Below, in pieces: positions 34,145 to 61,991 of a stretch of 64,000 nt of DNA (position 1 is its first letter; each line of letters starts with the position of its first letter). Under the pieces are notes generated by a model. The model was not told the DNA's origin, ran no database searches, and saw only the letters and a program-made list of their open reading frames with translations. The position numbers and the translations under genes were made by a program. Source of the DNA: Armatimonadota bacterium (lineage in GTDB: Bacteria > Armatimonadota > Fimbriimonadia > Fimbriimonadales > Fimbriimonadaceae); NCBI GenBank assembly GCA_016223145.1, contig JACRPN010000021.1, positions 1 through 64,000 on the forward strand, written 5' to 3'.

Positions 34145-34900
<756 letters not shown>

Positions 34901-38753: not shown

Positions 38754-41700
38754 TTACTGCTTTCCGACCGGCGTTGGCGTGAACCTCGGCGCAATTGTCT
38801 GGAAGAAGATGTCCGGTGTTCCCGTTCGCGTGCTCATCCAGAACAGCCAGATAAGCCCTGGCCGTCGCTGCGCGGCGTTCCCGAAGTCGAACGGATCGGG
38901 GAACGCGAAGAGCTGCGACTCGGTGAACGCCTGGTCCATTGGAACCGGCGCCTCATCCCTTTCGGGAACCAGCGCGACCTGGACATTGGTCAGCACGATT
39001 CCTGGGATGGCAGCTCCCGTCGCCTCATCCACACCCGTGTAGGTGATCGTGACCGTTCGGTTCTCATCCAGGTCCTGGAAATAGGCCCGGCCCCGGCCCG
39101 GATCGATTTGGTAGTACGAGGTGGCGCCCGTCACGTTGAACGACGTAATCGCGCCGTTCGCCTGAGTGTGCACCGGCACCGGGAGTTGGACTCCGAGCCG
39201 GAACGTGCGCATATAGGGGCGGCTGGTCTGGCCCGCTCCTGCCGCCGCTCGGCCATACGTGAAGACCATGCGCGCGCTTCGGACGGGGTCGTTCGGAATC
39301 GGGCCGCCGTTCGGCACCAGAGGCTGGTTGTTCGAACGCGCCCAATAGCTGAACTCGCCGATCATGCGGTTGTCGAAGATCACCGTTGGAGTCGAGTATC
39401 CGGCGCCCGCACTGCCGCTCGCCAATAGGAGGCGCGGCGTGTAGCGCAGGAGCAGGCTCGCGTTTCGCGGCGGCAGCGTTCCCGCCAGCCGCACCGTGCC
39501 CATGTTCGGGTCCAGGTAGGCCTTTCCGCCAAGCTTGGTGTCGAACGTGACAAGCCCGGTCGTGCGGTCGATGACCCGAGTGTTGGCCACTTCGAGGTTG
39601 GTCCTCACGCCGTTCAGGATCATGTCGAGCTGGATCGTGGCGTTCAGGTTCCATTGCAGGCCGGTCGAACGGTAGTTCCCAGCCTCGCCATCGGCGACCA
39701 TCCGGTCGTCCACCATTTCAGGCAGATAGATGAACTGCGCCTGGCCGCCCTGGCCCTGCGGTCCGCCGTAGGTTCCACCCGCGCGCACCCTGCCATGAAA
39801 AACCTCTGGATTCGGCCTGCCGCGAAGCTTGCCGGTGAAACCGAGTTCGAACATCGGCGCCCCGTTCGGAAGCCCGGGAACCGAGGCGCCCGCATAGGTC
39901 CTGGCGTAGGCGCTGGGCCCGGAAACATACTCGAAGCCCGTGCCGACCGCCAGCTTCAGTAGCTGGCCCGTGTTGTAGGCGGTCGTGCCGTTGTCGTGGA
40001 ATGCCTGGGCATAGATCTGGGTCTGTCCGCCGCCGCCCGCCGCGAAGAACAGCGTGCCGTCGGCATCGCTCGTCTTGACGATCGCGGGACGACCCTTGAC
40101 GCCGCCCTCCACGCTGGGCAGCGGGCTGATGTTGCCCATGCTGATGGCCCCATCGGCCGCCGTCGTGAACGACGCCACAAACGGAAGCGACATGCTGCGT
40201 CGGCCGCTGCCGCTTTGTATCTGGGCCTCGCCGAGGAACGCGATGTGCTGGGTGCCAAACTCAGCACCGGTATAGGGGTTGAACGCCCCGAGCAGCGGCA
40301 AGGCGGGAGCACCGAATTTGTCGGTGCCGGCAATAATCGTCTCGCCGCCGGAGAGACCGAAGAGCGCTGTCGAGGGAACGGTCGGGAACGGTCCCACTTC
40401 CTGCCGGAAGAAGGTGCCGCCGGCGCCGGGAAGCCAGGCATTCAGGTCCGGCAAGAAGCTTGACCCGAGGCCGGTTTCAGGCCGCGTTCCCGTCATGGAG
40501 CCGATGTAGAGCCGCCACCCGTCGTTCAGGCTCTCGGTGAGGGGCTCCGGCGCGTTGAACGCCGACGAGTTCGACATGTACGCTACCAGGAGGTTGCCGA
40601 AGCGGTCTCGCATGGCGGCAGGCTGCATGTTCTGGTGCAGGAACTTCTCGGTGCCGTTCGAGAGATTCTGCATCATGGGCGCCGTGTACTTCGTGTAGGC
40701 GTTCGTGATTCGGGACTCGCGCGCGCTGAACCTGAGGGTGAATCCAGGATCGGACTGCGCCTCGGTGGGGTTCCACGTACCGTTCGCGAGCAACGAATAT
40801 GCGAGCGTCTCGTTGTCGTCCACGTCCTCGATCACGCGCATCTGTGAGAGGTAGGACCCGACGGGCATACCGATCGGTACGGAGACCGAGACGCGCGGCG
40901 GGTTCGGCAGAACGCCTGCCGGGCCGCTTGTCGGCATCAGGTACGACTCCGCGAACTGGTTCAGGTTCTCGTTGACCCTGCGCCTGGGGTTCACGAGGAG
41001 CTCGTTCGCCGAAGAGTCGCCGACCCTAGGCTTCTGCAGGATCACGCTGTTGCTGCCCGAATGCACCGGAGCGAACCGCTTGTCGATGTCCGACCAGAGG
41101 TTGAGCTGCGTGTCCAGCCAGCTTCGCTCGTGCCCTGCGGGGGCAAAGAGGCCCCAGGGCCGGACGGTGCCAGACGTGGGGTCGAAGAAGCCCTTGGCGA
41201 GCCTGAGGTTCAGGAGGTTCACGTTTCCGTCGTTGAACACGCGGAACGTCTGGAAAATGTCGGTGTACGGGGCAACGTTGGGTCCATAGCCCGTATTGGT
41301 GGACAGCCATGGCCAGGGGTTGGTCGAATCCGCCCTAAAGCCGGTACCCGAGCCCAGCGAGCCGAGGTCCAAGGTTGGGGTCCCCACGTAGAACTTCTCA
41401 TCCACGGCCACGCTCGCGGCGGCCACAAACGTGCGGAACGCCTCGCGTCGGTTGCCCACATTGCCGAATCGGCCGTCGCCGTTCGAGTCGACATAGACCG
41501 TGATCGTTCCGGCATAGCCTCCCGGAACGCCGGCGAGATTGGCCGGATCGGAGTCCAGAATCGTCGAGAGGTTGGCCGGCTGGTACCTGGGAACGTTGAT
41601 GTCGATGTCCAGCGGTGTTCGGACCAGCGTCCGGTTGGTCACCGAGAAAGCGCCGACCGAGGTGGGCGGGATGAGCGCCACCCCGTAGTTCGCGGGGTCC

Positions 41701-44700
41701 TCCGCGTTGCCAAACCGGTCCTTGATGAAGTCCACCCGCTCCTGCTTGAGATCGGGGAAATCCAAGCTGGTGTTGGGGAACCGTGTCGGGCGGTCCTCGA
41801 AGTTGGGATAAGCCAGCGGATCGAGCGGCTTCCAGATGGACCCTGCGCCACCGCGCCAGGTCAGGTCAGCCCTGCCTATGCGCACGTTGTCCACGCCCCG
41901 CTCGGGCCCGCGAATCTGGCGCATCATGCTGCGGTCGAAAACCGCCATTTGGCGCGTGGCCTTCTGATTATGGTGCACGACGCCGGCGGAGGCCGTGATG
42001 CGGTCCTCGCGCTTGGTGCTCGAAAGGATGTCGCGCGAGCCGTTCATCACCGCTTCCGAGTGGTTCGGCTGGATCGTGTAGCCCAGAGAATGGTTCGGCA
42101 GCGGGTTACCACTAGCATCGAACTGCGTGGCAACGGCGATCGGGTTGGCTACCTGGAAGACCTTGTTGACGAGGGCCGGGTTCAGCACCACGTTCTGCAG
42201 CGGATCGCCCGCGCCGAACTGAGCCGAAAGGATCGCGTTCGTGTTGGCGTTGCCCGGCGCAATCGCCGTGCTGCCGGAGCCCTGAACCGTGAACGAGATG
42301 ATCGCGTAGCCGTCCAGGGTAGCGCCGGTGATCCCGGAGACGGGAGACGTTCCCGAAAACCGCTTCGCGGTCGACGTGATGTTGCGCACGGACGCGCCTT
42401 CGACGTTGAATCGAAACTCCGCCTGAGGGGCCGTGTAGGGCGGCTCGGGCAAGCCCGACGGGTTGTATGGGAAGTTGTACACCATCAGGTAGATGGTCTC
42501 GCCCCATTCATAGGCGGGGTTGACCGTCGTCACCTGGGCCGAAGTGTTGTTCGCTTGGGCGTGGGTCATGTGCCCCGAAGCGCCCGTCGGCAAGCGGAGC
42601 TTCTGATAGGTGTCCGGCTTGATGAACACCAGCTTGGCTTCGCGGAACGGGATGCCCAGCGGGTCGTTCTCGACAATCTCGAACGTTCCTGGCGGGTCTC
42701 CAGGCGAAATGTGCCCGGAGGTGCTGTTGTTGAGGCCGTACATGTAGCCGTTGGGGTCGGTGATGTACATCCAATTTCGGCCAACGGCCACCGAAGTCTT
42801 GAGGTCTGTTGCCCGCGTATCGAAGCCCCAGGCGCGGCGGCGGGTGCCGCCCAGGCTGTTCGTCTTCGACCATTCGGCAAACAGGGCCGAGATGCGCCCG
42901 TCGTTGGTGGGCACGATCACGCACGGCTGCGGGGAGGAGTAGAGGGCGCCTGAATTGTTGTAGACCGTCAATGGCGAATAGGTCAAGTTGCCGGCGACCG
43001 CAGAGCCAAGCTCGTTGGTTGCCCAGAGAATCAAGCCGGACGCCGCATCAAAGGCCGTGATGTAGCCGTTATCGTTCGCCGCCACGACGGTGTTCGGCAT
43101 GCCCGTCATCAGGGTCGAAGCGATGGTCACCGGACCGCTGGCGAAGTTCTCGGCATTCGCGCGGTTCCATTGTGCCGCGCCGCCGGAGTACTGCCAGACC
43201 AGTGCGCCCGTATCCTGATTCAGGCACACGAAGTGGCCAAGATTGTCCGAGCCGACGTTGCTGCCAAAGTACACCCTCCCAAACTCAACGGCCGGAGTGG
43301 ACTGGATGGCGCCGAGCGGCTGGGTGGTCAAGCTGGGGTAGTTCCAACGGACGCTCGTGGTCTTCGTCGCCGGTGTGCCGAGCGCGTTCAACGCATAGAG
43401 CCGACCCTCCGAGGTCGGAACGAACACCGTGGGGCCGGAGGCGATGGTGGCAAACGCCAGAGAGCCCTTGATCGGTCCCAGGGTGCTGGTTCGCCGGGAA
43501 GAGGGATAGTCGTTCGGGTAGGTCCACCTGCGAACGGCGGTGCCGGGATAGCTCTTGGCGTCGTCCATATCCCCGCGCCCAGCCATCTCGATGCAGTAAA
43601 CGCGGCCGTTCGTGGAGCCCACATAGAGGTAGTCCACGCCGCTGATCCGCTGGATCATCGCGGAGGTCATGTCGAAGCCGATTGGCATTTCCGCGATCGG
43701 ACCGACGCCATCGACCCCGCTGACATGGTTCGGGTCCGTCCAGCCGGATTCGTTCGGCCGGGGAGTGCTGGGATAGGTCCAATAAACCTTGGTCGTGCCG
43801 TCAGCATTGCCCAGCGAGTCCAGGCAGTAGATCCTGCCGTCCTCGGCGCAGACGATGGTCACTTCTCTTTCCACCGGCGCGCCTGCGGGTGTGAGCTTGA
43901 CAAACGCCTTGGCCTGGACAGGAGTCGAGTGGATCGCGGTGCTTCCTGCGCCGACGAACCGGACCGCATCGGCATACGCCAGCAGGCCCGCATCGGCAGG
44001 AAGCGCGCTGAAATTCGTCATCTTGACGCGAAGCGGATCGGCCTTGGTGTGATCGAACCGGCGCGACCCAAGGCGCACCCAACCGCCTCCCGCATTGGCA
44101 TCCAGGGTCAGGTTGGTAACCGAAGCCCCCTCCTCGACGTCCACCCGCTGCTGCTGTGCAAAGACCGTGGGGCCGGAGCTTCCCTGAAGGTGGACCCAGA
44201 CTTCGTAGCTACCGTCTTCCAGCGTCGGCTCAAACGAGACGTTCGACATGAGCACCGTGCTGTTGGTGGTGGGCTGGGAAAGGTAGTTGGTTCCGATGAA
44301 CCCACTCGGAGTGGTTTGAGGCGTCCATCCTGGCCCAGGGACCGCCGACAGGTTGTCGACGTTCACCGTGAGTTCGGGCGAGACCTGGTTCGGCCGGAAC
44401 ACCCATCGGTCGTTGTTTGCAACGTCAAGCAAGCCGTTGTTCGAATCGTGGAACCTCGAATGGACCTCTCCAACCTCGACGACCTTCGGCTTGCCGTCCA
44501 CGTAGGCCAATTCGTGCCTCGTAATGGCGTCCACCGTGTTGATGATCGTGGGCAGCGAGGAGATCAGGTTCACGATCGGCGAGGCGACGTAGGTTCCGTA
44601 TTCCGGAACCGCCATCACCGCGTCGCCGTAAACGAGCGTGCCGGGGCTATCCGTATAGCGGCCGCTGCTGTCCATCGGAACGGTGTTGTGGAGCCGGATC

Positions 44701-45389: not shown

Positions 45390-48300
45390 CAACGCCTGTC
45401 GGCAAAGACCGGCACGACGATTCCTCTCGCGCCCGTCACTGGCGGCAACTGGAAGAGAACGCTGAACCAGTTGAAGCCAAGGTTAATCTTCGAGAAGCTG
45501 AATCCGGAAATCGTGTTGTCGTTCGTCGTGTCCACGCTTCCGTCCACTTCGAGCACCTCGCCAAAGAAGTCGGCGCCCGTCAAAGTCTTCGAGCTGTAGC
45601 CATTCACGACCAGCACGGTGCCGGAATCCAGGCGACGGGCATAGGTCGGCATGAACCCTGGCGCGTTCGAGGCAAGCGGCAGACCGGTTCCGATACCTCG
45701 CCGCATGACCACGTAAGCGCCCTTGGGCAGCATCCACCGGACGGTCCACCCCAGGGGCCCTTCGACCACTTCATAGACGCCGTCGTTATCGGTGAACATG
45801 ATCGCGACCCGCACGCCGCCGTCCGTGATCAGGCGCATGGACACCGACCTGACGCTGTTCAGCTTCTTGTAGTGTCCGGGCACGGCTGCGCCGGACCAGG
45901 AGCCCGCACCGGAGTTCCAGTAAACGTTTGCCGGCACGTCCGGCACGTAGACCTGGTCCACAACCGCCTCGATGCCGGCGCTATCGTTAAAGACCACGAT
46001 GCCGCCGCCTTCGCGCGAGTTCGAGGTCGAGATCGTGGAGGGGCTGTCCAGACCCAGCGCCGTCCTCGAGGGCAGAGACCCGCCGATGGACGCCGCGTAG
46101 TGCCTGCTGGGCGTGCCGGGGCCGGCGGAGTAGTACAGCGTCGAGACGCCCGTGTATTCAAAGTTTTTGCTGCTGAAGTTCGCCGGCGAGTGCCAGTTGA
46201 GCACGCCCACCGCCGGATTGCCCGCGCCATCGGTGACGATGTTGCCAACGCGCTTGGTGATCGGATCGGCCGCATACCGGTCCACGATCTCGATCAGCCT
46301 GCGGTTGCCGCCGTCGGCGATCAGGAAGTGAACCCAATATTCCAGCGGCTGCGGGTTGCTGAACTGCGTCGGATTCGCGACGTAAGTGGTGTACGCGACG
46401 ACGTCCCGCGGCAAATGGAGCAGCAAGCTCTCGTTGGCGACATACCCCTCGGGCCGGAATCCCGTGTGGGAAGCGGCGGGCACGTCGGGATCAAGCTGGA
46501 ACCCATAGATCGAGCGGAGCTCGCGGCCGTTCAGGTCCATCTGGACCACCTTGTCGCCGCCGGTATCCACCACCAGCATCTCGCGCGAGTTCAGAGAGTA
46601 CGCGCGTGTGGGCCGAACCAACGGCTTGTGGCTCCCGGCGGAGCCGCTGTCGCCGATCGTTCCTGTGCTCGACGAGCTGTCGGAGCTCCAGATCGGGTTG
46701 CCCGAAGCGTCGAACCGAGCCAAGCGATTCTCGTCGGCGACCATGAAATCGGACCGCGCGAAGCCGAAAAGGCCGGTCTTGCTCCACGAAGCCAGCACCC
46801 CGTCTCCGGCGACGACCCCATAGTTCGTGGTCGAGCCGGGCAGCTTGGTCTGAAGCAGCCTCTGATACCACTCCTCAAACTTGGTCACTCCGCGCGACTG
46901 GGGCCAGCGGATGTCCGGATTCGGGGCGATCGATCCCGGCCCCGGGTTGTCCACGTCCACCAACCAAAGCTGCTTGAGCCACGGCCGGATGGGGTTTGAA
47001 TGAAGGAACGAGTCGCTGGGGCTGATCACCGCATCCATGCCCACCAGCAGGCCGCTCGGCTGCCAGGAGGCAAACGGCTTTCCGGCAAGGATGTCGGGCA
47101 AGAGGCTGGTGCCGCTGAAGAACAGGGTGTTGCCAGTGACCGTCAGCGGGGCGCGCCCGTTGTAGCCGTAGAACACGCTATACCACTGCAGGGTGTTCCA
47201 CTTGGAAGCGGTGCGGTCGGGCTCCACATAGAGGTCCGGCTGCCCCCCGCGCCGGATGAGCACCGGCAGACTGCGGCTCATCGAGTTCTGAATGAGCCCA
47301 CGCTGATTGGGCGAGAGGTTCGCGATGCGGATGCGGCCCTTGCCGTTTGCCTGGTTCGCCTCGTAGCTGTACTGCCCCGGCTGCAACACGCTGAAGACCT
47401 TCGGCTTGTAGCGGTCCGGGCTGCGCGCCATGTCCTGCTGGACCACGGTGAAGGAACCCGCGATCTCAGGAACGATGAGTTCGGGCGCCGGGGGATCGGC
47501 TTGGAAGCACATCACGACCATGCAGTCGACGAGGTTCGCCTTCAGGCCCCAAGCGGTCACATAGACGTTGTTGCCCACCACGACGGGCGCGCTTCTGAAC
47601 CGGAGCCGCGTGAACGCCCCACCCAGGAATGGCGGTGCAAAGGTCTGCACCTCGTCCGTGTCCAATAGGGTCTCGGCGATGTTGACGGGGGTGGACTGGT
47701 TCGGCGAGATCGTGTGGGCAGGGTAGAGGTCGTACCGGTCCAGCATCACGAAGTTGCCGCGGCCCGTTTCCCTGAACGCGAAATACGTCCCGCCGTCCGG
47801 CCCGAGGAGCGGATCGAAGCCGTCGTTCGGCGGGGCGGTTGTCAGGTACAAGGTTCCCGTCGGCGACATCGCCAGGTGCTGAAGAACCATCCGTTCCGAC
47901 GTACCGTCGCCGGGCAAATAGAGGTTCCCACGCACGATCTGGTTCTGGATGTTGTTCTGGCCCGTGCCCCAATCAATGGTGTAGTCCAGCCGAAGCGAGA
48001 CCGAAGGCGGGAGCGTCTGCCCCGACTCCATGGTGAAGGTCAGGACACCATTGGATTCGCTGACGCCGCTTTTGAAATAGGTGTCGAGCTGCGCCACGTT
48101 CCACGCCGCGCCATTCGCGTCGATGACCGAAAGCTTGATGCCCAGCGGATCGGGGCCGGCCGTGGTCTTGTGGATGCGCAGGCCTTGGAGGCTCGCGCGG
48201 GTGATCACGGTGAGCTGGTCGCCGGCCTGGCTCCAGGTGGTGGGCTTTTCGCCCCGTGCGCCGAACCAAATGCTCGTGATGCCCGGCGTGGACTGCGGCC

Positions 48301-50077
48301 CGCCGCTCGTCGAGGCTCGGGTGGGGATATACACGACGCGATCGGTGCCCCCCGAGCCATCTTGGATCGGAACGTCGCCCACCGTCGGGCTCGAAGAGGG
48401 CTGGCGAATCTGGTTGACACCGTTGCCGCCTACCGCCCAAGGCGTGCCGGACGTTTCGAGAATGCTTCCGTCGGAAGCATCGGCGACCCATACGCGGCCA
48501 ACCGCCGAAGCGAAGCCCGCCGTGGCGTCATCGGCGACGAAATAGAGTCCCTCGGAATAGGTCGGCGCGTAGGGTCCTCGGCCGGGCCCGCTGGGCGAGG
48601 AGTAACCCGTTGGAACCGGTGTCGTCCATACGGGGCTGACCGCCGCCGAAGGGGTCGCATAGACGTTGAACACGACGAGGTTTCCGCTGCCGTCCACGAC
48701 CGCGATCTGGTTCGGCACCGAACTGTTGGGCACCTCCGCGCAAGTCGGAGGCGAAATCGGCGTGGTGAGCGACGCGCTACGCCATACCAGGTCGTAGCTC
48801 TTGCCGAAGGCGTAGTCCAAAATGCCGTCGTCGGGGTTGCCATCGTAGTCGAGGTCCCGCTCGGGGTTCACATCATAGACCTCGATGTGGTTCCCCACGG
48901 TGATCGCCACCAGGCCCTTGAAGATGGCGGGCGGAACGTAGGCGTCGCCCGGATCAAACTGCGAGGGGTAGACCGCTGAAAACCGGCTGAGGAGCGGCGC
49001 GCCGACGTCGATCGCGCTGCCATTGGTCTTGCGCGTGCCGCCGCCGAACTGCGGGTGGCCCGAGGTCAGGCTCACCATGTTCACGATGAGCTTGGCGGCC
49101 GCATCGGCGCGCGCATCGGGGACATAGGGTTCAGCAGTGGAAATCCGGTTGGGCTCATAGTCGTTGCCCACGTCCTGCCCGTTCACCAGTCTGCGGGTCC
49201 GGTTCAGCGTGTCGGCCAAGCCACGCGTCGTGACCACCATAAAGCCGTCGCCAATCCTGCCCACCGAAACGAAGGGGCCAAGCTGGTCCGCGGCGACCGG
49301 ATAGAAGCGGCCATACTCGCCCGCCGCCGTGTCGGTCGGCTGCTGGATCTCCTGAATGTCCGCATGGGCAACGGCGGCCAGGTCCACAGCGCGTACGCCG
49401 ATGGTCGACTGGCTCTGCATGGCCAAAAGGTTGTTGGACGTAATGGTCGACGGGTAGGTCATCAACGGATGGAGCCAGTCGGCGTCCAATCCGGCGCCGA
49501 TCGAGGTGCTCGCCACCGTGAAAGGCAGCGGGAAGCCGTTGACCAAATCAAGCTGGGGCGCGCCGGAATAGGCGATGTCGATCCAGAGCACACCTCCGGA
49601 CTCCACAAACTTTCGAAGTCGGCCCCGCTCGTCGGGGTTGATGTTCACGAAGCCCTGGACGCTGACCAGCAAGACGTCGAACTGGGAAAGCTGCTCGTTG
49701 GTGGCTGTGGCAAGCCGAAGCTCCCAATAGGCGCCGTTGCTCTTGGTGATTCGCTCACCAATCGCGGGCCCAAAAGCGCTGCCGCCATAAAACGTGTCGA
49801 GAAGAGACCATCGCGAGGCGATCGTTGCGGTCACCGAGCCTGGCGCAAGGGGGTTCGTGAAGTTCCAACCGGAGGGCTTCACGGCCTTGTTTCGGTCCAG
49901 GTTGTGCCAAACGTAGGGGTCGTAGTTCGCCTGGGTACCGGCAACCTGCTGGCTGTCGAGCAAGAGAACTCCGGCTCGGATGTCGATGGCCTTTTGGGCA
50001 TAGTTGACCTGGCCCATGGCGGCGGGAGCCAGCAGACCGGCCAATCCCACAAGCATCGCAGCGCATCGCCGAATCAT
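45389..50077 (-). CDS. Giant exported protein with propeller-like repeats, pilus-operon associated
   Basis: A 1562-aa protein with a signal peptide (MIRRCAAMLVGLAGLLAPAAMGQ). An N-terminal alpha/beta region (about 30-170) has SQFDVLLVSVQGFVNINPDE and LRKFVESGGVLWIDIAYSG, which resembles DUF4159/glutamine-amidotransferase-like domains of predicted secreted proteins. NHL/PQQ-like strands follow, such as LVAITVGNHIEVYDVN, QIAVVDGSGNLVVFNV and MLVVDTGGDKVVQMDLNG. A Ca-loop-like DLDYDGNPDDG is at 408-418. No catalytic site recognised. ATG 50077 overlaps the PilX-like stop (ATGA) and its stop overlaps the 2212-aa gene. It is probably displayed at the surface or at the pilus tip together with its neighbour. 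Confidence 0.65.
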   Translation of the reverse strand: MIRRCAAMLVGLAGLLAPAAMGQVNYAQKAIDIRAGVLLLDSQQVAGTQANYDPYVWHNLDRNKAVKPSGWNFTNPLAPGSVTATIASRWSLLDTFYGGSAFGPAIGERITKSNGAYWELRLATATNEQLSQFDVLLVSVQGFVNINPDERGRLRKFVESGGVLWIDIAYSGAPQLDLVNGFPLPFTVASTSIGAGLDADWLHPLMTYPSTITSNNLLAMQSQSTIGVRAVDLAAVAHADIQEIQQPTDTAAGEYGRFYPVAADQLGPFVSVGRIGDGFMVVTTRGLADTLNRTRRLVNGQDVGNDYEPNRISTAEPYVPDARADAAAKLIVNMVSLTSGHPQFGGGTRKTNGSAIDVGAPLLSRFSAVYPSQFDPGDAYVPPAIFKGLVAITVGNHIEVYDVNPERDLDYDGNPDDGILDYAFGKSYDLVWRSASLTTPISPPTCAEVPNSSVPNQIAVVDGSGNLVVFNVYATPSAAVSPVWTTPVPTGYSSPSGPGRGPYAPTYSEGLYFVADDATAGFASAVGRVWVADASDGSILETSGTPWAVGGNGVNQIRQPSSSPTVGDVPIQDGSGGTDRVVYIPTRASTSGGPQSTPGITSIWFGARGEKPTTWSQAGDQLTVITRASLQGLRIHKTTAGPDPLGIKLSVIDANGAAWNVAQLDTYFKSGVSESNGVLTFTMESGQTLPPSVSLRLDYTIDWGTGQNNIQNQIVRGNLYLPGDGTSERMVLQHLAMSPTGTLYLTTAPPNDGFDPLLGPDGGTYFAFRETGRGNFVMLDRYDLYPAHTISPNQSTPVNIAETLLDTDEVQTFAPPFLGGAFTRLRFRSAPVVVGNNVYVTAWGLKANLVDCMVVMCFQADPPAPELIVPEIAGSFTVVQQDMARSPDRYKPKVFSVLQPGQYSYEANQANGKGRIRIANLSPNQRGLIQNSMSRSLPVLIRRGGQPDLYVEPDRTASKWNTLQWYSVFYGYNGRAPLTVTGNTLFFSGTSLLPDILAGKPFASWQPSGLLVGMDAVISPSDSFLHSNPIRPWLKQLWLVDVDNPGPGSIAPNPDIRWPQSRGVTKFEEWYQRLLQTKLPGSTTNYGVVAGDGVLASWSKTGLFGFARSDFMVADENRLARFDASGNPIWSSDSSSSTGTIGDSGSAGSHKPLVRPTRAYSLNSREMLVVDTGGDKVVQMDLNGRELRSIYGFQLDPDVPAASHTGFRPEGYVANESLLLHLPRDVVAYTTYVANPTQFSNPQPLEYWVHFLIADGGNRRLIEIVDRYAADPITKRVGNIVTDGAGNPAVGVLNWHSPANFSSKNFEYTGVSTLYYSAGPGTPSRHYAASIGGSLPSRTALGLDSPSTISTSNSREGGGIVVFNDSAGIEAVVDQVYVPDVPANVYWNSGAGSWSGAAVPGHYKKLNSVRSVSMRLITDGGVRVAIMFTDNDGVYEVVEGPLGWTVRWMLPKGAYVVMRRGIGTGLPLASNAPGFMPTYARRLDSGTVLVVNGYSSKTLTGADFFGEVLEVDGSVDTTNDNTISGFSFSKINLGFNWFSVLFQLPPVTGARGIVVPVFADRR

Positions 50078-53000
50078 CGAAGAACCTCCCCGAAATACGA
50101 AAGGACCGGGCTCACCGGCAGGGCCGGCATGGGCGCCAGCGGACGCCCGTAAGAGTCCCGCCGAATGTAATCGCCGCCGAAGCCGAACGCGGACGCGGTA
50201 CCCAACGCCGGATCGTACGAGACGATCAGATTCGGCACGTAGTTCGCGCCCGAACTCACGTCGAACAGCGGGTGGTTGTGCAGGGTCGGGATGTAGATCG
50301 GCTTATCGCTCGCGATATCGTACATATAGCCCGTCTGCTTGGGTATCCAGCCCCACTTGCGCAGCCACTCGCCCTGATAGCTCATTGGAAGCGGGATGTT
50401 CTGGCTGATGGAACCGAAGATGCCGATCTTCACGTCGAGCGGCTCCTGGTGGAACGGCATTTCCGGTCCCGACCCATAGTTCTCGCGCCGCTCCTGGATG
50501 GCCCGGGCAACCGCTTGCGCGTGGGTCATCCCAAGGCCCTGGAACGCCGTAACCCGAAGTTCGAAGGCCTCGCGCGTGTCGTTTGGGTTCGGGTTGAACC
50601 AGTTGCCTGGAATCACCACGAACGAACCCTGTTCAGCGAACATCGAGGCTTCGATCCGCACATCGAACGGCAGAACCACCGCGCGCGCCAAGAGATAGTC
50701 GTTCGTCGCTCCGGCCCCGAGCTGGTTGTGGCGCATGAGGATATCGCTCATGTCGCCGACCAAACCCATGTAATCTCCGTAGCTGCCGGCGGCGTTCGCG
50801 CGGAGCACCGTCCCGTTGGCCTGGGTGCTGAGCGTGGCCGGGTCAAAGAGCGTGAACCCGGTCGTTTCGAACTTGGGATACCGCTGCCAGGTTTCGCTGC
50901 CCAGGCCGTAGATCGCGCCATAGGGCTGCGGCTGGAAGTAGGGCGCCGCCGCGTTCGGGGCGACCATCTCGAAGAAGTAGTCCGGGTTCGCCAGGCCGTA
51001 ATTGACCTGCATCGACATGAAGGACCAGGGAGCGGCGCCGTCATCGGTCGCATGGCTCAAAACGACCATCGACTTCCGGAAGCTGTTCGTCGCGTTGGCG
51101 TCGCGATAGCCTTCGGCCATGCTCTCCCAGCTGTTGGGCAGCGACGGCCCGCTTCCGCTCGCCGTGTTCCAGAGCAGTTCGAAGCGCCAGTCGAACGAGC
51201 CGCCGTGGCGAATGCGAAGGGGGTTCCAAGCCACCGGATTGGCCTCTTCGGAGACCTCCTCCAGCGACTGGCCGAAGATCGGCCCAAAGAACATCGTGGG
51301 GTTGATGGCCACGTAATCCTTGGCCATCAGCATCAGCATCGAGCGGCTGGGCCGGTTGAGCCTTGTGGCCGCCGGAGGGCCGCTCGGATCGGTGACCAGG
51401 TTGCGCAGAACGCCCTTGGTGATGCTGCCTTCGACGTAGATGGTCGCGTTCGACACAACGGTCATCTGAACGTCGGTCGGGATGATCCCGCGAATGCGGA
51501 CGTTGCCCTCGAAGTACAGCACCCCGTTGAACGGCCGTCCCGCGGCGAAGTTGGGAGTGGCTGAACCGATGTTCGCGCCAGGCGTAAAGCTGTTGATGAT
51601 GTAGGGAACGCCGTTGACCGTTCCGACCCTAAAGCGAATGGACGAGGTTCCGGTGTCCGCGCCGTCGGGGGTTCGCCAGGTCCGCTCGGGACCCGTGGCC
51701 CGCCCGTCGCGGATGATGTTGAATCCGTCGGCATCCATCAGCACATAGGCGCCGCGAGGGATGTAGTAGGGGCCGATCCAGCCGGAATTCGCCTGGCCGT
51801 TGTTCGGGTGGAACCAGTCGTAGAGAAGCGACTCAGAGCTTCCGGCATCGGCCCGGCCGTCCTCGTCGGTCCGCATCTGAAGGTCCTGCGTGTTGTTGAC
51901 GTAGATACCGCTGCCGTGCCCTCGGCTGCCTTCCTGGCCGAACGCCGTCACGCGCCCGCTGTTGCGGGTGAGCTGGAAGTAGCGGGTCAGGTTTGTTTCA
52001 GGGTCCTGGCGAACGATGGAGGGCCCGGCCTTCGGGCCGACGTTGCGCCAATAGCCGCTGGGATCGTTACCGTCGTAGCCGTCGCGGAAGAGGCCCATCA
52101 GGGTAGAAAAGGCGTTGCTGCGGCTGTCCAGCGAGGGCGCGCCCGCGTTCGTGAGCGTCGCGGAGTCGGTCTGCCAAGTGCCGCTGAAGAAGCTGCGGTT
52201 GATCTGGACGTGCGCCTCGTCATTGGCGCCGACCGTCAAGCCCGCCACGAGCCAGTTATCGCCGAGGGGCTGATTCAATTCCGTGATGATCGGGCCATGG
52301 ATCACGAGGTCCATGTTCGAATACAGACTGCCGCCGAGGCCCGCTGTGCCAGAACCCACACCACCGTAATTCGGCAGGTCCATGGTTCCGCCGAAGATCA
52401 CCGGAACGTCGACCGGAGCTCCTAGATAAGAGACCCCAAACGGCCTGGGCGACCCGATCTCCGCCACGTTGCTCGTGCGGTCCGAGCCCGTGATGTACAT
52501 CGTGGACTCAATCAGGCCAATCGAGGCAAACGCCACGAGTTTCGTGGTCTCGGTGTTGTCGCGGCCGAGGGTTGTGGTTGGGTCGTTCGCGTTCACGCGC
52601 CCGATCCGCCCGACAGACTCGATAATGATGTAGTTCCGCGCGCGCCCGGGCTGGCGAAGCGGACCGTTCTGAGCCGTCGAGAAGAGCACGGCGTCGCTAG
52701 GGCCGTACCTAACTCGAACCACGAAGCGGCCATTGCCGTAGTTGACGCGCGTGTAGCCGCCCAGCCCATCGGGGCCGCCCTGGTCCCCGTTGCTCGGGTC
52801 GGAATCCGGGTCCGGCCTCAGATAGTCGAGGTCGGGGTCACGGCTTGAAATCGGGAGCGTCGGCACAGGCCTGAAGTCCGCCCCTTCGTCGCTGTCAAGA
52901 AGCTGCTTGTGCACGTAGCGGATGCCGGCCTCGGCCAGAGCATAGGACTGTGAGCGCTTGCGCGACTCGCTGGTCTGGAAGATGTTCCGGTTGATGATTC

Positions 53001-53142
53001 CGAGAAACACAAAGCCGATGATCATCATCACGCCGAGCACGATCATCGCGGCAATCAGCGTTTGGCCGCGCGATCGCTTGCTCGACACTCTTTGATAGCT
53101 CATCGCGTTTTTCATTCGGTTCTCAACCCTTTCTCCACCCAT
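50074..53142 (-). CDS. PilX/GspK-like minor prepilin with ~950-residue exported domain
   Basis: A 1022-aa protein. Near its N-terminus it has a prepilin-like leader RSRG, then QTLIAAMIVLGVMMIIGFVF and, after the helix, the PilX-type SYALAEAGIRYVHKQLL. The Glu at +5 is absent, as in PilX/GspK. Ordinary PilX is about 190 aa and GspK about 330 aa. Here a very long beta-rich region follows, with no recognised catalytic motif. ATG 53142 has GAGG about 7 nt upstream; ATG 53115 is an alternative. Coupled by ATGA to the following 1562-aa gene. It is predicted to be an inner-membrane pseudopilin incorporated at the pilus tip. Confidence 0.7.
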   Translation of the reverse strand: MGGERVENRMKNAMSYQRVSSKRSRGQTLIAAMIVLGVMMIIGFVFLGIINRNIFQTSESRKRSQSYALAEAGIRYVHKQLLDSDEGADFRPVPTLPISSRDPDLDYLRPDPDSDPSNGDQGGPDGLGGYTRVNYGNGRFVVRVRYGPSDAVLFSTAQNGPLRQPGRARNYIIIESVGRIGRVNANDPTTTLGRDNTETTKLVAFASIGLIESTMYITGSDRTSNVAEIGSPRPFGVSYLGAPVDVPVIFGGTMDLPNYGGVGSGTAGLGGSLYSNMDLVIHGPIITELNQPLGDNWLVAGLTVGANDEAHVQINRSFFSGTWQTDSATLTNAGAPSLDSRSNAFSTLMGLFRDGYDGNDPSGYWRNVGPKAGPSIVRQDPETNLTRYFQLTRNSGRVTAFGQEGSRGHGSGIYVNNTQDLQMRTDEDGRADAGSSESLLYDWFHPNNGQANSGWIGPYYIPRGAYVLMDADGFNIIRDGRATGPERTWRTPDGADTGTSSIRFRVGTVNGVPYIINSFTPGANIGSATPNFAAGRPFNGVLYFEGNVRIRGIIPTDVQMTVVSNATIYVEGSITKGVLRNLVTDPSGPPAATRLNRPSRSMLMLMAKDYVAINPTMFFGPIFGQSLEEVSEEANPVAWNPLRIRHGGSFDWRFELLWNTASGSGPSLPNSWESMAEGYRDANATNSFRKSMVVLSHATDDGAAPWSFMSMQVNYGLANPDYFFEMVAPNAAAPYFQPQPYGAIYGLGSETWQRYPKFETTGFTLFDPATLSTQANGTVLRANAAGSYGDYMGLVGDMSDILMRHNQLGAGATNDYLLARAVVLPFDVRIEASMFAEQGSFVVIPGNWFNPNPNDTREAFELRVTAFQGLGMTHAQAVARAIQERRENYGSGPEMPFHQEPLDVKIGIFGSISQNIPLPMSYQGEWLRKWGWIPKQTGYMYDIASDKPIYIPTLHNHPLFDVSSGANYVPNLIVSYDPALGTASAFGFGGDYIRRDSYGRPLAPMPALPVSPVLSYFGEVLR

Positions 53143-53146
53143 GGCG

Positions 53147-55306
53147 CTACCTCAGGACGTTCCTTACCGCGGCGCTGGCGGCAACGGTGATGCCTTGCGG
53201 GTTCGGAAGCGACGACTGCGGGTAGTTCCGAATCGTCAGCTTGATCGACATCGCCTGGCGCGAATCGTAATCCGCCGACAAACTGTCGCCATCCCTGGTG
53301 AATTGGAAGCGGTAGGACACCCGAATGTTCCCATTGGGCAGGGGCAGGTTCGGGTCGGAATACAACTGCAGATAGCCCGCCTTGAACCTCGGCTGGATGA
53401 AGGCTGAGAGGAAGTTGGCGGCACTATACGACCCGCCGAGTCCCTCAAAAGCCGTCACTTCCGAGTTCGAGAACCCGAGGAGCCGGTAATCGGTGGGTTC
53501 GGGAAGGTCCACATAGTTCAGCTTGTACTGGTTGGGCCCAGGGTTTCGTGTGGTGCGGGAGTACCGGATCAGCTGCCCGTAGTTCGGTCCGGCGTTCTGA
53601 TCCGGACCGATCACGCTTTCGCTTCCCGGCACGATCCGAGCTCGGGCAAAGCCGCGAAGCGGGTTGGGATCGAGGGGGCTGGGCGTATCGTCAGGCTGCG
53701 CCACGACCCTTAGGTCGATGAACCTATGGATGTTCCCCCTGAGCTCGGGCCGCACCGACCACACCTTGTTAAACGAGGAGTTGATCTCATACTTCGGCTC
53801 GCTGGGCGAGTAGATGGCGTCCGTCAGTGTTCCGGGCGGGTTGGGGTCTTGCACGGGCGAGAGGGTCGGGCCGGTCAAGACGTCGGGCTTGTTGCCTCCC
53901 GGAGGTTCCGGCAACTGGTTAACGTCGCCAAGTTCCTCGATCGGGAAGCTCGCCGTCACGCGGCCCAGCTTCTCGTTCATCGAGAACGCCGCTAAGCGGT
54001 TTCGATAGGTGCTGTTCGCCATCGCCGCCGGATTCAGGGCGCGGCTGAACGCGTAGGGCAGGCGGTTTCGTACGGCCCATTCGTAGGCCGTGCCGTCGAA
54101 AAGGAGCAGGCCGTCGTACAGCTCACTTGCGTCCAGATCGGGGTCGAAAGTGAAGATCCCGTGCCTCCATTCCCCAGAGCCGCCCGGATAGCGCCTTGCC
54201 ACCAGGTATTCGTTGGCCGAGGCGTTTGTGCGGTCCCAGCCGACGGGCCAGAAACGGATCACGGTCGCGCTCCATCCGCCCTTGCTCGACCGGAAGACGT
54301 CGGGAGCAAAGGCTGTAGCGCTGTCGCCTTCACCGCTCAGCCGAACGGCCGCCATCGCCTCGAGCGGCTCGTTGCCGATCCCGGTCGGGCGGAACTGTAT
54401 CAGCGGGAGAATCCGAGGCGTATCGCCGTCGTAGACCACCTTTCGGCTCTGCTTATCGTAGACCGGCTGGATCATGTCGAAGCGGCTGACCTCGGTCATC
54501 ACGCGCCCCGCCTTCATCCAGTTGCGCACACGGCCCTGCTTGGCGGCAAGCGCCGCGCCGCCCAGAGTGCCTCCGAACCGGTCAAACCCCGGCAGAAGGA
54601 AATAGGGATCGTCCATGACCGGCTTGCCGCTCAGCGGATCGCCAGGAACGATGGTGGAGGGGTCGACTTCAAAGAAGGCGGTGTTGACCACGAACCGCTG
54701 GTTCGTGTTGTCCCAAAGGTAAGGCTGAACCTCGAACCGGTAAAGCACGTACAGGTTGTCGCGCTCGCCCTCTTTGGCCATGAGGAGCCCATCGTAGGGG
54801 TTTACGTAGCCACGCGGGTGCAAAGGGTCCCTCAGGCCGATGGAGAACCGGACAACCGTGTCCCCAGGGGTCACGGGCAGCACAACCTGGCCTTTCGGCG
54901 CCTTTAGCGTGGGGTCCTCTTTGCCGGTGTCTGGGTCGATGTAGGCGCCACTGGGGCCGCGAAGCGGCTCGCCTGTTGCGGGCTTGGCCAGGTCAAGTTT
55001 GCAGTACTCGAGGAGCACCGGGGCAACAACCGCGCCGTTCCGGCCCGGAACCAGAACCGCCACCTCGCCGGCGCGGTCCGCATTGTCCAATATCGACGCA
55101 GCGTTCGATATCTCCCGGCCAACACGCTCGACGACCGTTCGCGCCTTGTCCTGGGCGTCCGCGAGGGCCTGGGCCTGCCGCGTCATGTTGAAGCCCTGAA
55201 CGATGGGAACAATGACCAGCGTGAGGATGATCGCGGTGATCGCAATGACCACCAGCATCTCCACGAGGGTAAACGCTTGTTTCAAGGGAAGCCGTTTGAG
55301 TGCCAC
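53147..55306 (-). CDS. PilW/GspJ-like minor prepilin, oversized
   Basis: About 719 aa from a GTG at 55306, which follows the TAA of the PilV-like gene by one base and has GGGGGAGA upstream. The leader is short and basic (ALKRLPLKQA), then FTLVEMLVVIAITAIILTLV with Glu at +5, and the post-helix segment QAQALADAQDKARTVVERVG typical of PilW/GspJ. The residue before the cleavage site is Ala instead of the usual Gly. Classical PilW is about 270 aa; the extra length is a beta-rich exported domain. Predicted minor pilin processed by the PilD encoded upstream. Confidence 0.8.
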   Translation of the reverse strand: MALKRLPLKQAFTLVEMLVVIAITAIILTLVIVPIVQGFNMTRQAQALADAQDKARTVVERVGREISNAASILDNADRAGEVAVLVPGRNGAVVAPVLLEYCKLDLAKPATGEPLRGPSGAYIDPDTGKEDPTLKAPKGQVVLPVTPGDTVVRFSIGLRDPLHPRGYVNPYDGLLMAKEGERDNLYVLYRFEVQPYLWDNTNQRFVVNTAFFEVDPSTIVPGDPLSGKPVMDDPYFLLPGFDRFGGTLGGAALAAKQGRVRNWMKAGRVMTEVSRFDMIQPVYDKQSRKVVYDGDTPRILPLIQFRPTGIGNEPLEAMAAVRLSGEGDSATAFAPDVFRSSKGGWSATVIRFWPVGWDRTNASANEYLVARRYPGGSGEWRHGIFTFDPDLDASELYDGLLLFDGTAYEWAVRNRLPYAFSRALNPAAMANSTYRNRLAAFSMNEKLGRVTASFPIEELGDVNQLPEPPGGNKPDVLTGPTLSPVQDPNPPGTLTDAIYSPSEPKYEINSSFNKVWSVRPELRGNIHRFIDLRVVAQPDDTPSPLDPNPLRGFARARIVPGSESVIGPDQNAGPNYGQLIRYSRTTRNPGPNQYKLNYVDLPEPTDYRLLGFSNSEVTAFEGLGGSYSAANFLSAFIQPRFKAGYLQLYSDPNLPLPNGNIRVSYRFQFTRDGDSLSADYDSRQAMSIKLTIRNYPQSSLPNPQGITVAASAAVRNVLR

Positions 55307-55307
55307 G

Positions 55308-57299
55308 TTACGGGTTCTCCCCCTTCTGTAGGAAGCTCTCGACATAGACTTGACGCCAACCTCGCGACCACTGGTTGAACCTCAGCCAGTTCTGCTCGCT
55401 GGTGGACTTGACATTGAAGCTCTCCGGGTTCCAAAGAACTCGGACGCGCAGGGAAGCGCCACGCACGAACCGCACGGCATAGCCGTTGCTGTAGTCGAAC
55501 GCCGTTGCCGCGGGATCGATCGACCGAATGTCGACATAAGGACCGATCGGGTCTGCGGGCGCCGTCTGAATCTGGAAGTTCTGAGAACGGAGCACCTTGA
55601 CGGAAGCTCCGTCCGTGTACCAGATTTCGCCGACGGTCACGTTCTTGCCGCCGTCTGTTGTTGGGAAGTAGATTCGAGTGGGCTGGCCGACGGGCGTGTT
55701 GCCGGTCTGGCCGACATAGAACTCGGCGATCTGCGGAGTGCCGTAGGACTGGCGATAGCGCGACGCGGCCTTCATCGCCTGGACGGCGAACTCGCCGCGA
55801 GCCTGGTAAAGCGCCCGGAGCAGCCGCCCTTCGGCGTTCACGGTCACCTGGGTGTTGGTCCCCGGGTAGATCATCCGAAGCTGGAGCCCAGGCGCCACTC
55901 TATCGTAGTCGAGGAACCGGACGAACCCTGCCGACTTGTCGACCACATACGATGACCTGGCCGGATCGACCCGCAGGTAGTCGTTGTGCACGTTCGGGTC
56001 CGGGTTTGGGTCCGCGGGGTTGGTGGGATCGTGAAGCAACACGGAACCGGTCTGAAGGTCCACCACGATCACATCGAGTTCCTGGGTCGAACCAGGGTCG
56101 CCCAGAGGCGTCCCGTTGCCGGTAGGAACCGCGACGTCCATGCCTCGGTTAGGAAGCTGGTCGGGCCCGTCGTCACCCTTGACCTTGATGCCGTCGAGCT
56201 TCAGCTTGACGGAGGGGTTCTCCTCGTCCGGTACGCGGAACTCGTCCCGGATAATCCTCCAGTCGAGCACGTCGTAGTTCACGCGGGCCATGAGCGGCAC
56301 GCGGCGGTTGTTGCCGCGAAGCTCCTTGTAGTCGTAGCCCCTGGGGTTGAACAGCAGGACTCCGAGCCGCCCGTCGAGGAGCACGTACTCGTAAGGATCG
56401 CCGGTGAAGAGCGTGGGGTCGGCAAGCTGGTCGAACGACCGCGCAAGCCGAACGGAGTCCCAGTCCACCGACAGCAGCGTGCCGAAGCCGCTCACCGCCG
56501 GGAGCGCGGAAAAGTCAACGTCATAGTAGCCGCCAGACGCGTTCGGAGAAACGGAAATTGTCGTCTCGACGTCGCGGTATTCCGGGCCGCCGTTGTTGAA
56601 CCAAGCCGCGAATTCAAGGCGATAGGAAAACGTCTTGAACCGGTCGCGGGGGATGTGAAGCGCGGCGTTCGACTCATCCGGATCGCTCACGTAATAGACA
56701 TAGCTTCGCGAGCGCCCGAAGAAAGGCTCGCCCCAGCGCTTGACGAGGTCGTTTCCATAGACCTGGAGCAAAAGCGGATAGCCCGGATCGTAGACGATCG
56801 GAGAAAACTGGAGAACCAGCAGGCCCCCAAAGGCTCCGCCGGTCTGGCTCGGCGCCGGCACCCGACCGCCCTCGCCGATGATGCGTCGGGTCATGTTCGC
56901 GCCGCTCACGTAGGGCCAATAACCGAGTGCGGCGGTGGCGCCCGCAACCAGCACGTTGCCCTGGTTGTCCATGCCGTCGCCGTCGACGGGAAGCAGGGCC
57001 GTCATGGTCACTCGCGGGTCCGAAACGATGCTGACCAGGGTGCCGCCAATGAACGAGTAGACGGTGGTTCGGATCTCCTCAGGGATCTGCTCGGCGCGGC
57101 TCGCGATGCGCGCCCACTCTTCCTCGCCGAGCCGGTACTGCTGGGTGTTCGCTTTCGTCGTGCGAAGGACCCCAAAGCCGCCCGGGAAGATCTGGATCAC
57201 GCCAAGGATGCCGATCAGCAGCACGACCATCACCACCAGCACTTCAAGGAGTGAAGTGCCTCGGGCTCTAAAGGATCGGCCGCGCTTGATCTGGTTCAT
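55308..57299 (-). CDS. PilV/GspI-like minor prepilin, oversized
   Basis: A 663-aa protein with an N-terminal type IV prepilin signal: basic leader MNQIKRGRSFRARG, cleavage after Gly14, then TSLLEVLVVMVVLLIGILGV with Glu at +5. This is characteristic of PilV ('LLEVLVALVIL..GLLG'). PilV is normally about 185 aa; here more than 600 beta-rich residues follow, including repeated VLLDGRLGVLLFNPRGYDY-like strands. It is separated from the downstream PilW-like GTG by one base. Structural or adhesive role at the pilus tip is inferred. Confidence 0.82.
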   Translation of the reverse strand: MNQIKRGRSFRARGTSLLEVLVVMVVLLIGILGVIQIFPGGFGVLRTTKANTQQYRLGEEEWARIASRAEQIPEEIRTTVYSFIGGTLVSIVSDPRVTMTALLPVDGDGMDNQGNVLVAGATAALGYWPYVSGANMTRRIIGEGGRVPAPSQTGGAFGGLLVLQFSPIVYDPGYPLLLQVYGNDLVKRWGEPFFGRSRSYVYYVSDPDESNAALHIPRDRFKTFSYRLEFAAWFNNGGPEYRDVETTISVSPNASGGYYDVDFSALPAVSGFGTLLSVDWDSVRLARSFDQLADPTLFTGDPYEYVLLDGRLGVLLFNPRGYDYKELRGNNRRVPLMARVNYDVLDWRIIRDEFRVPDEENPSVKLKLDGIKVKGDDGPDQLPNRGMDVAVPTGNGTPLGDPGSTQELDVIVVDLQTGSVLLHDPTNPADPNPDPNVHNDYLRVDPARSSYVVDKSAGFVRFLDYDRVAPGLQLRMIYPGTNTQVTVNAEGRLLRALYQARGEFAVQAMKAASRYRQSYGTPQIAEFYVGQTGNTPVGQPTRIYFPTTDGGKNVTVGEIWYTDGASVKVLRSQNFQIQTAPADPIGPYVDIRSIDPAATAFDYSNGYAVRFVRGASLRVRVLWNPESFNVKSTSEQNWLRFNQWSRGWRQVYVESFLQKGENP

Positions 57300-57334
57300 T
57301 TCAACTTCTCTGGTGTCGGTAGGGCGGAAAGGCG

Positions 57335-58198
57335 TCAGGGCAGGACTCTCCAGGATCGCTCGAACGCGTCCTTCGAGTCATAAGTGCGCGCCGCGCCGCT
57401 CAGGAACAGCACGATGTCTTTCTTGGTGTGAGAGACGTCGCCCCCGGAATAGTCGCGGAAGTAGCCGTTCCAGGTGATAACGGTGTTCTCCGGTGGGTTG
57501 TCGTAGCCAAGCTGGCGCGGGTCGTCCATGGCGTTGCCGCCGCCAAGGCCCCAGGAACTCCAGAACCTGGAGTAGCGTAGCGTCGTTCTCGTCACACCAG
57601 AGCCGGGCACCCTTTCCTCGGCCACGTCGTAGCCGCTAATGCGGTAGAAGCAGGCTTCCACGGCCGCCGCGCCGCCGGCGCAGGGGCTGGCCGGAAGCGG
57701 GGACTCGGCGAGCACGGTCGTCGCCGGACCAAAAGCCTGCCTGGCGTTTGCCGGATCGTCGGCCGCATCGATGTCGCCGTCACCATCCAGGTCGAGCGCT
57801 GGGGCCGTTCCCGCCGCGCGGGGGTCCTGGTTGGGCCAAAGCGCCATGGTCACGGCGCTCGGATCAACCCGGTCATAGGCAGGGCGGAACGATTCAAGCG
57901 AGGGAACGCGCTTGCTGTAGAGGTGGCCCGGATAGAGGTTCGCCGGAATGATCTGGCCCATGTTCGCGCCGGTCATGTAGACCGAGGCGTAGCCCAGAAT
58001 CGCCGGAGGATAGGCGCCGTTGTCGGCTCGGTAAAGCTGCAAGGCGGTTCTCAGCTCGTTCATGTGCTGGATGTCCCCGCCGCGATAGGCGCTGTCTTTG
58101 GCACGCGCCAAGACGGGCAGAATGATCGCTGAGAGGATCGCGATGATCGCGATTACGGTCAGCAACTCGATGAGAGTGATGCCCCGAGTTGGTTTCAT
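57335..58198 (-). CDS. GspG/FimU-like prepilin
   Basis: A 287-aa protein from ATG 58198. Leader MKPTRG, then ITLIELLTVIAIIAILSAII with Glu at +5, followed by LPVLARAKDSAYRGGDIQHMNELRTALQLYRADNGAYPP, the hallmark of GspG/PulG-type and DUF1559-like prepilins. It contains a DLDGDGDIDAADD stretch (around 150-165) like a Ca-binding or dockerin-type loop. It could be the pseudopilin that primes assembly (FimU role) or a major pilin candidate, although its length exceeds typical major pilins (150-170 aa). Confidence 0.85.
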   Translation of the reverse strand: MKPTRGITLIELLTVIAIIAILSAIILPVLARAKDSAYRGGDIQHMNELRTALQLYRADNGAYPPAILGYASVYMTGANMGQIIPANLYPGHLYSKRVPSLESFRPAYDRVDPSAVTMALWPNQDPRAAGTAPALDLDGDGDIDAADDPANARQAFGPATTVLAESPLPASPCAGGAAAVEACFYRISGYDVAEERVPGSGVTRTTLRYSRFWSSWGLGGGNAMDDPRQLGYDNPPENTVITWNGYFRDYSGGDVSHTKKDIVLFLSGAARTYDSKDAFERSWRVLP

Positions 58199-58257: not shown

Positions 58258-59349
58258 TCATCGCGTCCCAGGCGCTACCCAATTCAGGTAGGCGTCTACC
58301 AATCCTAGCAACTCCTTTTGGAAGATGAGCACGGCGATGGCTCCCAACGCCAAATAGGGGCCGAACGGAATCATGGTCCGCTCGACCTCAAACGCTTCCT
58401 CTTCTTCCAACGGCACGAATTGGGGTTCCCCAAACCACCGCTCGTACAGTCTAGGGACATAGAGACCTGCAATGTCAACGCATAACAGGTATCCAAGCCC
58501 ACATTTTAGAAGGACCGGAATCGGTTCAGGTTCCCAATCTGCCTCTATCTCGGAGGCAGAACTTTCGACATCTGGCTCACTTCCCGGCTCTTTTGTATTC
58601 AAAACGTCGGACGGAACGCCGCCCACCCGCCGTTCACCGCCCCTTGCCAGGATCTGCACAATCCCAAACACGGCCCCAAAAAGCACGGCCACGCCAAAGC
58701 TCATGAGCGCCGCTGCAGGGAACACCACGGCCCCCACGCCCCGCGCCATCTTGATGTCGCCGTGGCCCATAGCATCTTTGCCAAAGAGCACCCTTCCAAA
58801 GATGGCGATTCCCCAGATGGCGCCGACCCCCGTCAGCCAGCCCGCCAGCGCGCTCGGCATGCCCCAGGTCATCGCCTCAGGCCTCCCTGCGATGAACAGC
58901 CACACGTTCAGCAGGATCCCGACGAGCCAGAGGAACCCGTTGATCTGGTCCGGGATGATATAGAGTTCCAGGTCGATGAAGATGATGGCGACCAGCGCCG
59001 ATCCCGCCGCCGCATAGGCCAGGAACATCGCGATATCCGAGCCCTGCACCAGAAATCTGTACCAGAGCGCTCCCCAAATGGCAAAGGTAAGCAGTTCGAC
59101 GAAGAAGTAGCGGCTGGAGACCTTCGCCCTGCAATGGCGGCACTTGCCCCCCAAAAAGACCCAGCTCAGCATCGGCACCAAGTCCGGCACCATCAGCCGA
59201 TGCTTGCACTTGGGACAGAAGCTGTTCTTGGGTTCGTTAAGGGAGAGACCCCGCGGGATTCGGTAGATGACGACGTTGAGGAAACTGCCAAAGAACGCGC
59301 CGATCCAAGCTCCGATCAGCCACGTCCAGGTTGGAAATAGTTCCTGCAA
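58258..59349 (-). CDS. pilD: Prepilin peptidase / N-methyltransferase PilD
   Basis: A 363-aa polytopic aspartic protease. The N-terminal zinc motif CPKC...CRHC (methylase domain) is present. Catalytic Asp residues are in FIDLELYIIPDQ and in GHGDIKMARGVGA (GxGDxK). It cleaves and methylates prepilins, including the four encoded immediately downstream. Family length is about 250-290 aa; an acidic insert (about 235-285, with SEPDVESSASEIEAD) explains the excess. The only available start is a TTG at 59349, with GGAGGG about 11 nt upstream. Confidence 0.92.
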   Translation of the reverse strand: MQELFPTWTWLIGAWIGAFFGSFLNVVIYRIPRGLSLNEPKNSFCPKCKHRLMVPDLVPMLSWVFLGGKCRHCRAKVSSRYFFVELLTFAIWGALWYRFLVQGSDIAMFLAYAAAGSALVAIIFIDLELYIIPDQINGFLWLVGILLNVWLFIAGRPEAMTWGMPSALAGWLTGVGAIWGIAIFGRVLFGKDAMGHGDIKMARGVGAVVFPAAALMSFGVAVLFGAVFGIVQILARGGERRVGGVPSDVLNTKEPGSEPDVESSASEIEADWEPEPIPVLLKCGLGYLLCVDIAGLYVPRLYERWFGEPQFVPLEEEEAFEVERTMIPFGPYLALGAIAVLIFQKELLGLVDAYLNWVAPGTR

Positions 59350-61933: not shown

Positions 61934-61991
61934 TCTGTTCTTCGTCCCAGTTCGATCGCTCGACGCCTCGCTTTGGGCGTCGCCCTCCACT

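Follow-up and report, generated by a model that had tools for sequence, protein, structure and literature searches.

A conserved cassette of giant prepilins and predicted exported proteins in the type IV pilus gene cluster of Armatimonadota

In the type IVa pili of Pseudomonas and Myxococcus, the FimU-PilV-PilW-PilX-PilY1 set is ordered as a pilin, the V, W and X pilins and then an exported propeller protein. All core pilins carry a glutamate at mature position 5 (Glu5) except the K/X-type tip pilin. Absence of Glu5 in GspK and PilX identifies the pilin that is the first to enter and comes to lie at the tip. In AlphaFold-Multimer models of the Myxococcus complex, PilX lies under PilY1 and the PilY1 C-terminus adds a strand to PilX (PMC11046646). 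PilY1-type propeller proteins bear a variable N-terminal domain (PMC11046646, PMC13190605), and the consensus given for their calcium loops is Dx[DN]xDGxxD (PMC8833165).

Enlarged minor pilins are described in other systems. ComZ of Thermus thermophilus, described together with PilA2, is an enlarged GspK-like pilin, and a steric argument confines it to the tip (PMC6561018). Large modular minor pilins functionalise the pilus tip in the Myxococcus Kil/Tad tip complexes and in Streptococcus sanguinis PilB/PilC (PMC12075869, PMC8179133); these belong to other pilus types, have other domains and have no partner equivalent to the two exported proteins described below. The Verru_Chthon cassette A-D (TIGR02600, TIGR02599, TIGR02596) is, like the present locus, a multi-gene prepilin cassette with one large member; a literature search for it gave nothing. 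In Fimbriimonas ginsengisoli, which is non-motile, fimbriae have been seen and a role in attachment was suggested by the authors (PMC4072686). A literature search with Armatimonadota and pilin terms returned no description of a cassette like the one reported here.

The window is the whole stretch of 64,000 nucleotides analysed (positions 1 to 64,000 of contig JACRPN010000021.1, assembly GCA_016223145.1). The host genome falls in the Armatimonadota, order Fimbriimonadales, by its named relatives. Six close-packed minus-strand open reading frames, P1 to P6, occupy positions 38754-58198 (Table 1). The coordinates, order and sizes given in an initial annotation of these genes hold when the reading frames are re-read from the sequence, as does its description of genes that overlap or lie tens of bases apart: in gene order, the junctions from P1 to P6 are +35, -38, +4, -4 and -4 bp, and the spacing from pilD to P1 is +59 bp. 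The annotated position downstream of pilB, pilT, pilC and pilD is confirmed by Pfam matches. The cassette is additionally followed on its 3' side by pilM and a PilQ-type secretin and is thus located inside the type IV pilus cluster, not merely after pilD. In this embedding between pilD and pilM it differs from the FimU-PilVWX-PilY1 set.

Table 1. Features of the pil cluster and of the P1-P6 cassette in the window, in gene order. Positions are those of the window.
Feature	Position	Strand	Length (aa)	Assignment and basis
pilB	61992..63791	(-)		Assembly ATPase; MshEN + T2SSE (Pfam), T2SSE 425 bits
pilT	60713..62050	(-)		Retraction-type ATPase; T2SSE 165 bits (Pfam), PilT-type length and position
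pilC	59468..60697	(-)		T2SSF platform; Pfam, 224 bits
pilD	58258..59349	(-)		Prepilin peptidase; A24_N_bact + Peptidase_A24 (Pfam)
P1	57335..58198	(-)	287	GspG-like prepilin, Glu5 present
P2	55308..57299	(-)	663	Giant prepilin, PilV/GspI position; PilV model at N-terminus only
P3	53147..55345	(-)	732 from ATG; 719 from GTG at 55306	Giant prepilin, PilW/GspJ position
P4	50074..53142	(-)	1022	PilX/GspK/ComZ-type giant prepilin without Glu5; probable beta-solenoid extension
P5	45389..50077	(-)	1562	Predicted exported; DUF4159-like N-terminus, PQQ/NHL propeller segments
P5, residues 123-175	49553..49711	(-)		DUF4159 match (Pfam)
P5, residues 408-416	48830..48856	(-)		DLDYDGNPD; PilY1-consensus EF-hand-like motif, Dx[DN]xDGxxD
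P5, about residues 1108-1270	46268..46756	(-)		C-terminal NHL-type propeller stretch; profile and conserved residues, approximate
P6	38754..45392	(-)	2212 from TTG; 2204 from first ATG	Predicted exported
P6, residues 651-797	43002..43442	(-)		PQQ_2 propeller core, E 5.7e-9
pilM	37396..38565	(-)		TIGR01175, 202 bits against a cut-off of 133
Probable pilN	36469..37386	(-)		Position alone; family search without match
Probable pilO	35773..36450	(-)		Position alone; family search without match
STN-domain protein	34145..34900	(-)		Glycine-rich, precedes secretin; family match
pilQ-type secretin	32413..34080	(-)		Family match
Terminator-like stem	32359..32390	(-)		14 pairs, directly after secretin; consensus match only

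P1 to P6 are likely transcribed as a single unit, given their spacing. The GC content at third codon positions is 0.80-0.83 in all six genes and matches that of the flanking pil genes. Promoter and terminator scans of the window stay at chance level except for one strong stem after the secretin, at which the pil unit likely ends, and an Rfam search of the window returned no match. The secretin and the STN-domain protein contain long glycine-rich tracts (GGLGGGG, GGFGGGG).

The N-termini of P1 to P4 are those of prepilins. A class III signal with a cleavable G/A and a hydrophobic alpha1 is found in 34/35 members of P1, 37/37 of P2, 38/40 of P3 and 41/42 of P4. Glu5 is present in all loci scored for P1 (34/34), P2 (37/37) and P3 (38/38) and in none of the 41 scored for P4, where position 5 is nearly always hydrophobic. 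Lacking Glu5, P4 has the sequence mark of a tip pilin of the GspK/PilX type, a likeness to the FimU-PilVWX-PilY1 set that is established for PilX and GspK and is measured here for P4.

Curated models match the N-terminal regions only (GspG for P1, PilV for P2, several pseudopilins and TIGR02599 for P3, GspK for P4), and all scores are below cut-off, generic prepilin models excepted. The best match of P1 is GspG (TIGR01710, 41 bits). The "GspG/FimU-like" label of the initial annotation is therefore retained in its first half; FimU is not established, and P1 as a proven FimU is rejected. P2 scores 18-29 bits against the PilV model, whose cut-off is 52, and the PilW and PilX_N models match none of P1 to P4. 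Verru_Chthon models give weak N-terminal-type matches, with 28 bits for P3 against a cut-off of 256.5 and a best E of 0.006 in 3/19 P4 relatives, none above cut-off. The fit of the N-termini to PilV/W/X profiles, named beforehand as a test of the tip-complex idea, is thus N-terminal and below cut-off, and P2 to P4 are V/W/X-like by position and not family members by profile. What stands of the proposed PilV/W/X-PilY1-like order is the prepilin N-termini, the Glu5 pattern and the propeller proteins that follow; no gene gives a full-length match to PilV, PilW, PilX or PilY1.

The C-terminal extension of P4 is probably a beta-solenoid. The first 60 mature residues of P4 can be aligned with a GspK-like protein encoded in a T2SS locus of this genome. 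A compact 348-aa GspK-like protein (L126 4070-5113; C4) has repeats of a solenoid-like kind, in which one motif resembles IYVEGSITKG of P4. This shared motif suggests that P4 may be an enlarged version of the plan of the 348-aa protein; a profile comparison of the two is not significant. For P4 and for residues 370-1562 of P5, AlphaFold predictions have pLDDT values of 27.7 and 31.5, which are unusable as fold support because the alignments, of two rows each, are too shallow.

P4 resembles ComZ in that a GspK-type pilin is enlarged by a big domain, which in ComZ is a beta-solenoid (PMC6561018) and in P4 is a suspected one. ComZ differs in its length of 554 aa, and no partners like P5 and P6 are described for it (PMC6561018). 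The likeness favours a DNA-uptake (competence) pilus tip, in which P4 would be a ComZ-like DNA receptor and P5 and P6 accessory envelope proteins, and so does a match to the FapA beta-solenoid family in one of 19 P4 relatives. Against this, the P4 profile has no sequence match among solved protein chains, and the calculated pI of every mature protein of the six lies in the acidic range of 5.0-6.0. A DNA-uptake tip is considered improbable.

In P5, the DUF4159 match recurs in 13/15 relatives, and this N-terminal domain takes the place of the vWA or DUF4114 found in PilY1 proteins. The strict Dx[DN]xDGxxD motif, which P5 shares with PilY1 (PMC8833165), is present in 25/35 P5 rows (three loci present twice), nearly always once and at an equivalent position, and a looser form is present in most of the other rows. 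Shuffled P5 carries the strict motif 0.4% of the time. The motif is read as a PilY1-type calcium loop that would bind calcium. When phylum-wide relatives are included, PQQ_2 is found in 6/19 members, NHL repeats in 6/19, and P5 matches solved NHL-type propellers (E 5e-7). A propeller in P5 is thus supported only once relatives are added.

The initial annotation placed propeller repeats in both large proteins. This is borne out directly for P6, in which the propeller prediction is firm: its PQQ_2 core is accompanied by matches to solved propeller structures, and a PQQ-type propeller is found in 15/15 relatives. Golvesin-type domains are found in 12/15 relatives, and the C-terminal ~1300 aa of P6 are conserved and without family assignment. 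The PilY1 propeller family, PF05567, has no match in P5, P6 or the relatives examined, in which both differ from PilY1; the genome-wide PF05567 search was likewise empty, but its controls matched nowhere either. The N-termini of P5 and P6 are hydrophobic, as read from the translations, and both proteins look Sec-exported.

Two T2SS-like loci are present elsewhere in the same genome. The first encodes pseudopilins of 157, 224 and 348 aa plus a 144-aa GspG, and the second encodes pseudopilins of 177, 207, 309 and 413 aa. Since the other filament loci stay within 144-413 aa, the giant size belongs to the cassette and not to the pilins of the lineage generally; a general pilin inflation is rejected on this ground. 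The genome contains 38 N_methyl prepilin reading frames, mostly of 115-460 aa. Apart from the pilT of the window, three PilT-like ATPase genes lie in tandem (L129 4472-7854; C6 ~210.5-213.9 kb), and a second pilM-to-secretin set encodes a 951-aa secretin and has no minor pilins near it (L130; C11 ~304.6-310.5 kb).

The T2SS pseudopilins GspG/H/I/J/K are similar to the cassette in their N-termini, in their order and in having a Glu5-less K-like member. A T2SS-like pseudopilus, in which the prepilins would act as a short piston, with P5 and P6 as released or surface-anchored cargo and not as a tip, draws on prepilin N-termini that are as close to GspG/GspK as to type IV pilus models, on the Sec-exported and propeller-rich appearance of P5 and P6, as secreted enzymes often have, and on golvesin and other carbohydrate-associated domains in P6. 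The cluster does not match a T2SS set (GspC/L/M, no retraction ATPase), however: pilT and pilM are part of it, and pseudopilins of ordinary size are encoded by the two T2SS-like loci elsewhere in the genome. The PilY1-type calcium loop in P5 also argues against a secretion piston, as does the layout, since P5 and P6 each overlap the upstream gene by 4 bp and adjoin P4 across the phylum. A pseudopilus of this kind is judged unlikely.

The cassette is conserved phylum-wide among the Armatimonadota genomes surveyed. With a 19-sequence profile, P4 is found in 230/237 genomes, although the matches in the most distant families consist of the N-terminus and scattered blocks and are not full length. 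Among 61 near relatives, P4 is present in 58, among them every one of the 51 with a completeness of 90% or more. Direct reading shows the ordered cassette in 18 loci from the same taxonomic order and in about 20 from other families (about 40 in total), with pilD before it and pilM after it where the fetched stretch extends that far (for example L087/L088, L090 and L095). Such a synteny survey had been proposed by the initial annotation. Recurrence of the same six-gene order across the order and the phylum is not chance, and a one-genome oddity or assembly artefact is rejected. That the giant cassette is not confined to a single genome is new. P5 profiles match 45 of 60 spread genomes. P6 profiles match 55/60; many of these matches are generic PQQ, matches beyond the PQQ region are seen in about 25 genomes, and P6 orthology in distant families often rests on the common PQQ region. 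Lengths are about 500-935 aa for P2, mostly 500-750 aa for P3 (about 300-340 aa in one distant family), 740-1355 aa for P4, 1340-2130 aa for P5 and up to several thousand for P6. Viral-contig scans with P4 and P5 found no relatives.

Two related 1.5-Mb genomes (G030 and G141) contain a shortened cassette and keep pilB and pilT. In G030 (L044) the cassette lengths are 279, 318, 538 and 685 aa, and in G141 the P4 reading frame is about 600 aa. P4 retains its N-terminus and C-terminal tail there, along with the solenoid-like stretch. P5 and P6 are absent from both genomes. Since P1 to P4 persist where P5 and P6 are gone, the two giants are dispensable for the role of the pilins there, which counts against the tip-complex reading given below, and the pair of genomes is a natural deletion series for them. 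By eye, P4 in G030 is followed by a gene that seems unrelated and methyltransferase-like. The loss of P5 and P6, together with the abundance of PQQ-type proteins in Armatimonadota genomes, is what would be expected if P6, and perhaps P5, were ordinary surface propeller proteins merely co-transcribed with a four-pilin tip complex. Adjacency that is kept across many families and, at least for P5, the PilY1-like motif point the other way, and a bystander role is rated distinctly unlikely.

P1 to P6 probably make up the complex that primes the type IV pilus of Armatimonadota and forms its tip, similar to FimU-PilVWX-PilY1. The most likely form is a minor-pilin/PilY1 tip complex enlarged to as much as ~0.65 MDa; the calculated mature mass of P2 to P6 is ~657 kDa, or 687 kDa with P1. 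From the features above we infer complex formation, tip position, calcium binding and adhesion to a ligand. PilD would cleave the four prepilins. P4, without Glu5, would enter first and cap the fibre, with P3 and P2 beneath it; P1 would either connect this stack to the shaft or be the shaft pilin. The large C-terminal domains of P2 to P4 would widen the tip, that of P4 probably as a ComZ-like beta-solenoid. By analogy with Myxococcus PilX-PilY1, Sec-exported P5 would dock on P4 as the PilY1 equivalent, its propeller stabilised by the EF-hand-like calcium loop and its DUF4159-type domain placed at the outer end. P6, with its PQQ propeller and golvesin-like domains, would be a second exported partner that probably contacts a surface or polysaccharide. 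This second tip protein is the least supported part of the model, and to our knowledge it has no close precedent. PilB would push the tip out via the secretin and PilT would pull it back under load.

Compared with the FimU-PilVWX-PilY1 set, the minor pilins here measure 663-1022 aa and two giant exported proteins are present instead of one; the tip-type proteins of the cassette exceed the usual size three- to fivefold. The architecture was initially called undescribed. None like it is described in the literature searched, and its parts resemble the ComZ and PilY1 tip complexes. It is a tentative suggestion that the tip is a phylum-specific assembly of ~0.65 MDa, with two separate propeller proteins mounted on three giant pilins: a PilY1-like one with a calcium loop and one that contacts carbohydrate. 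If so, the organisation of the tip would be unlike any described, and the tip would have to go through the secretin or be put together beyond it. A tip of such mass bears on how a tip larger than the shaft leaves via the secretin. The tip is probably an unusually massive grappling structure on a retractable pilus. If this is true, a barely studied phylum would gain a defined pilus tip, and the minor-pilin/PilY1 plan would be extended to a form several times larger.
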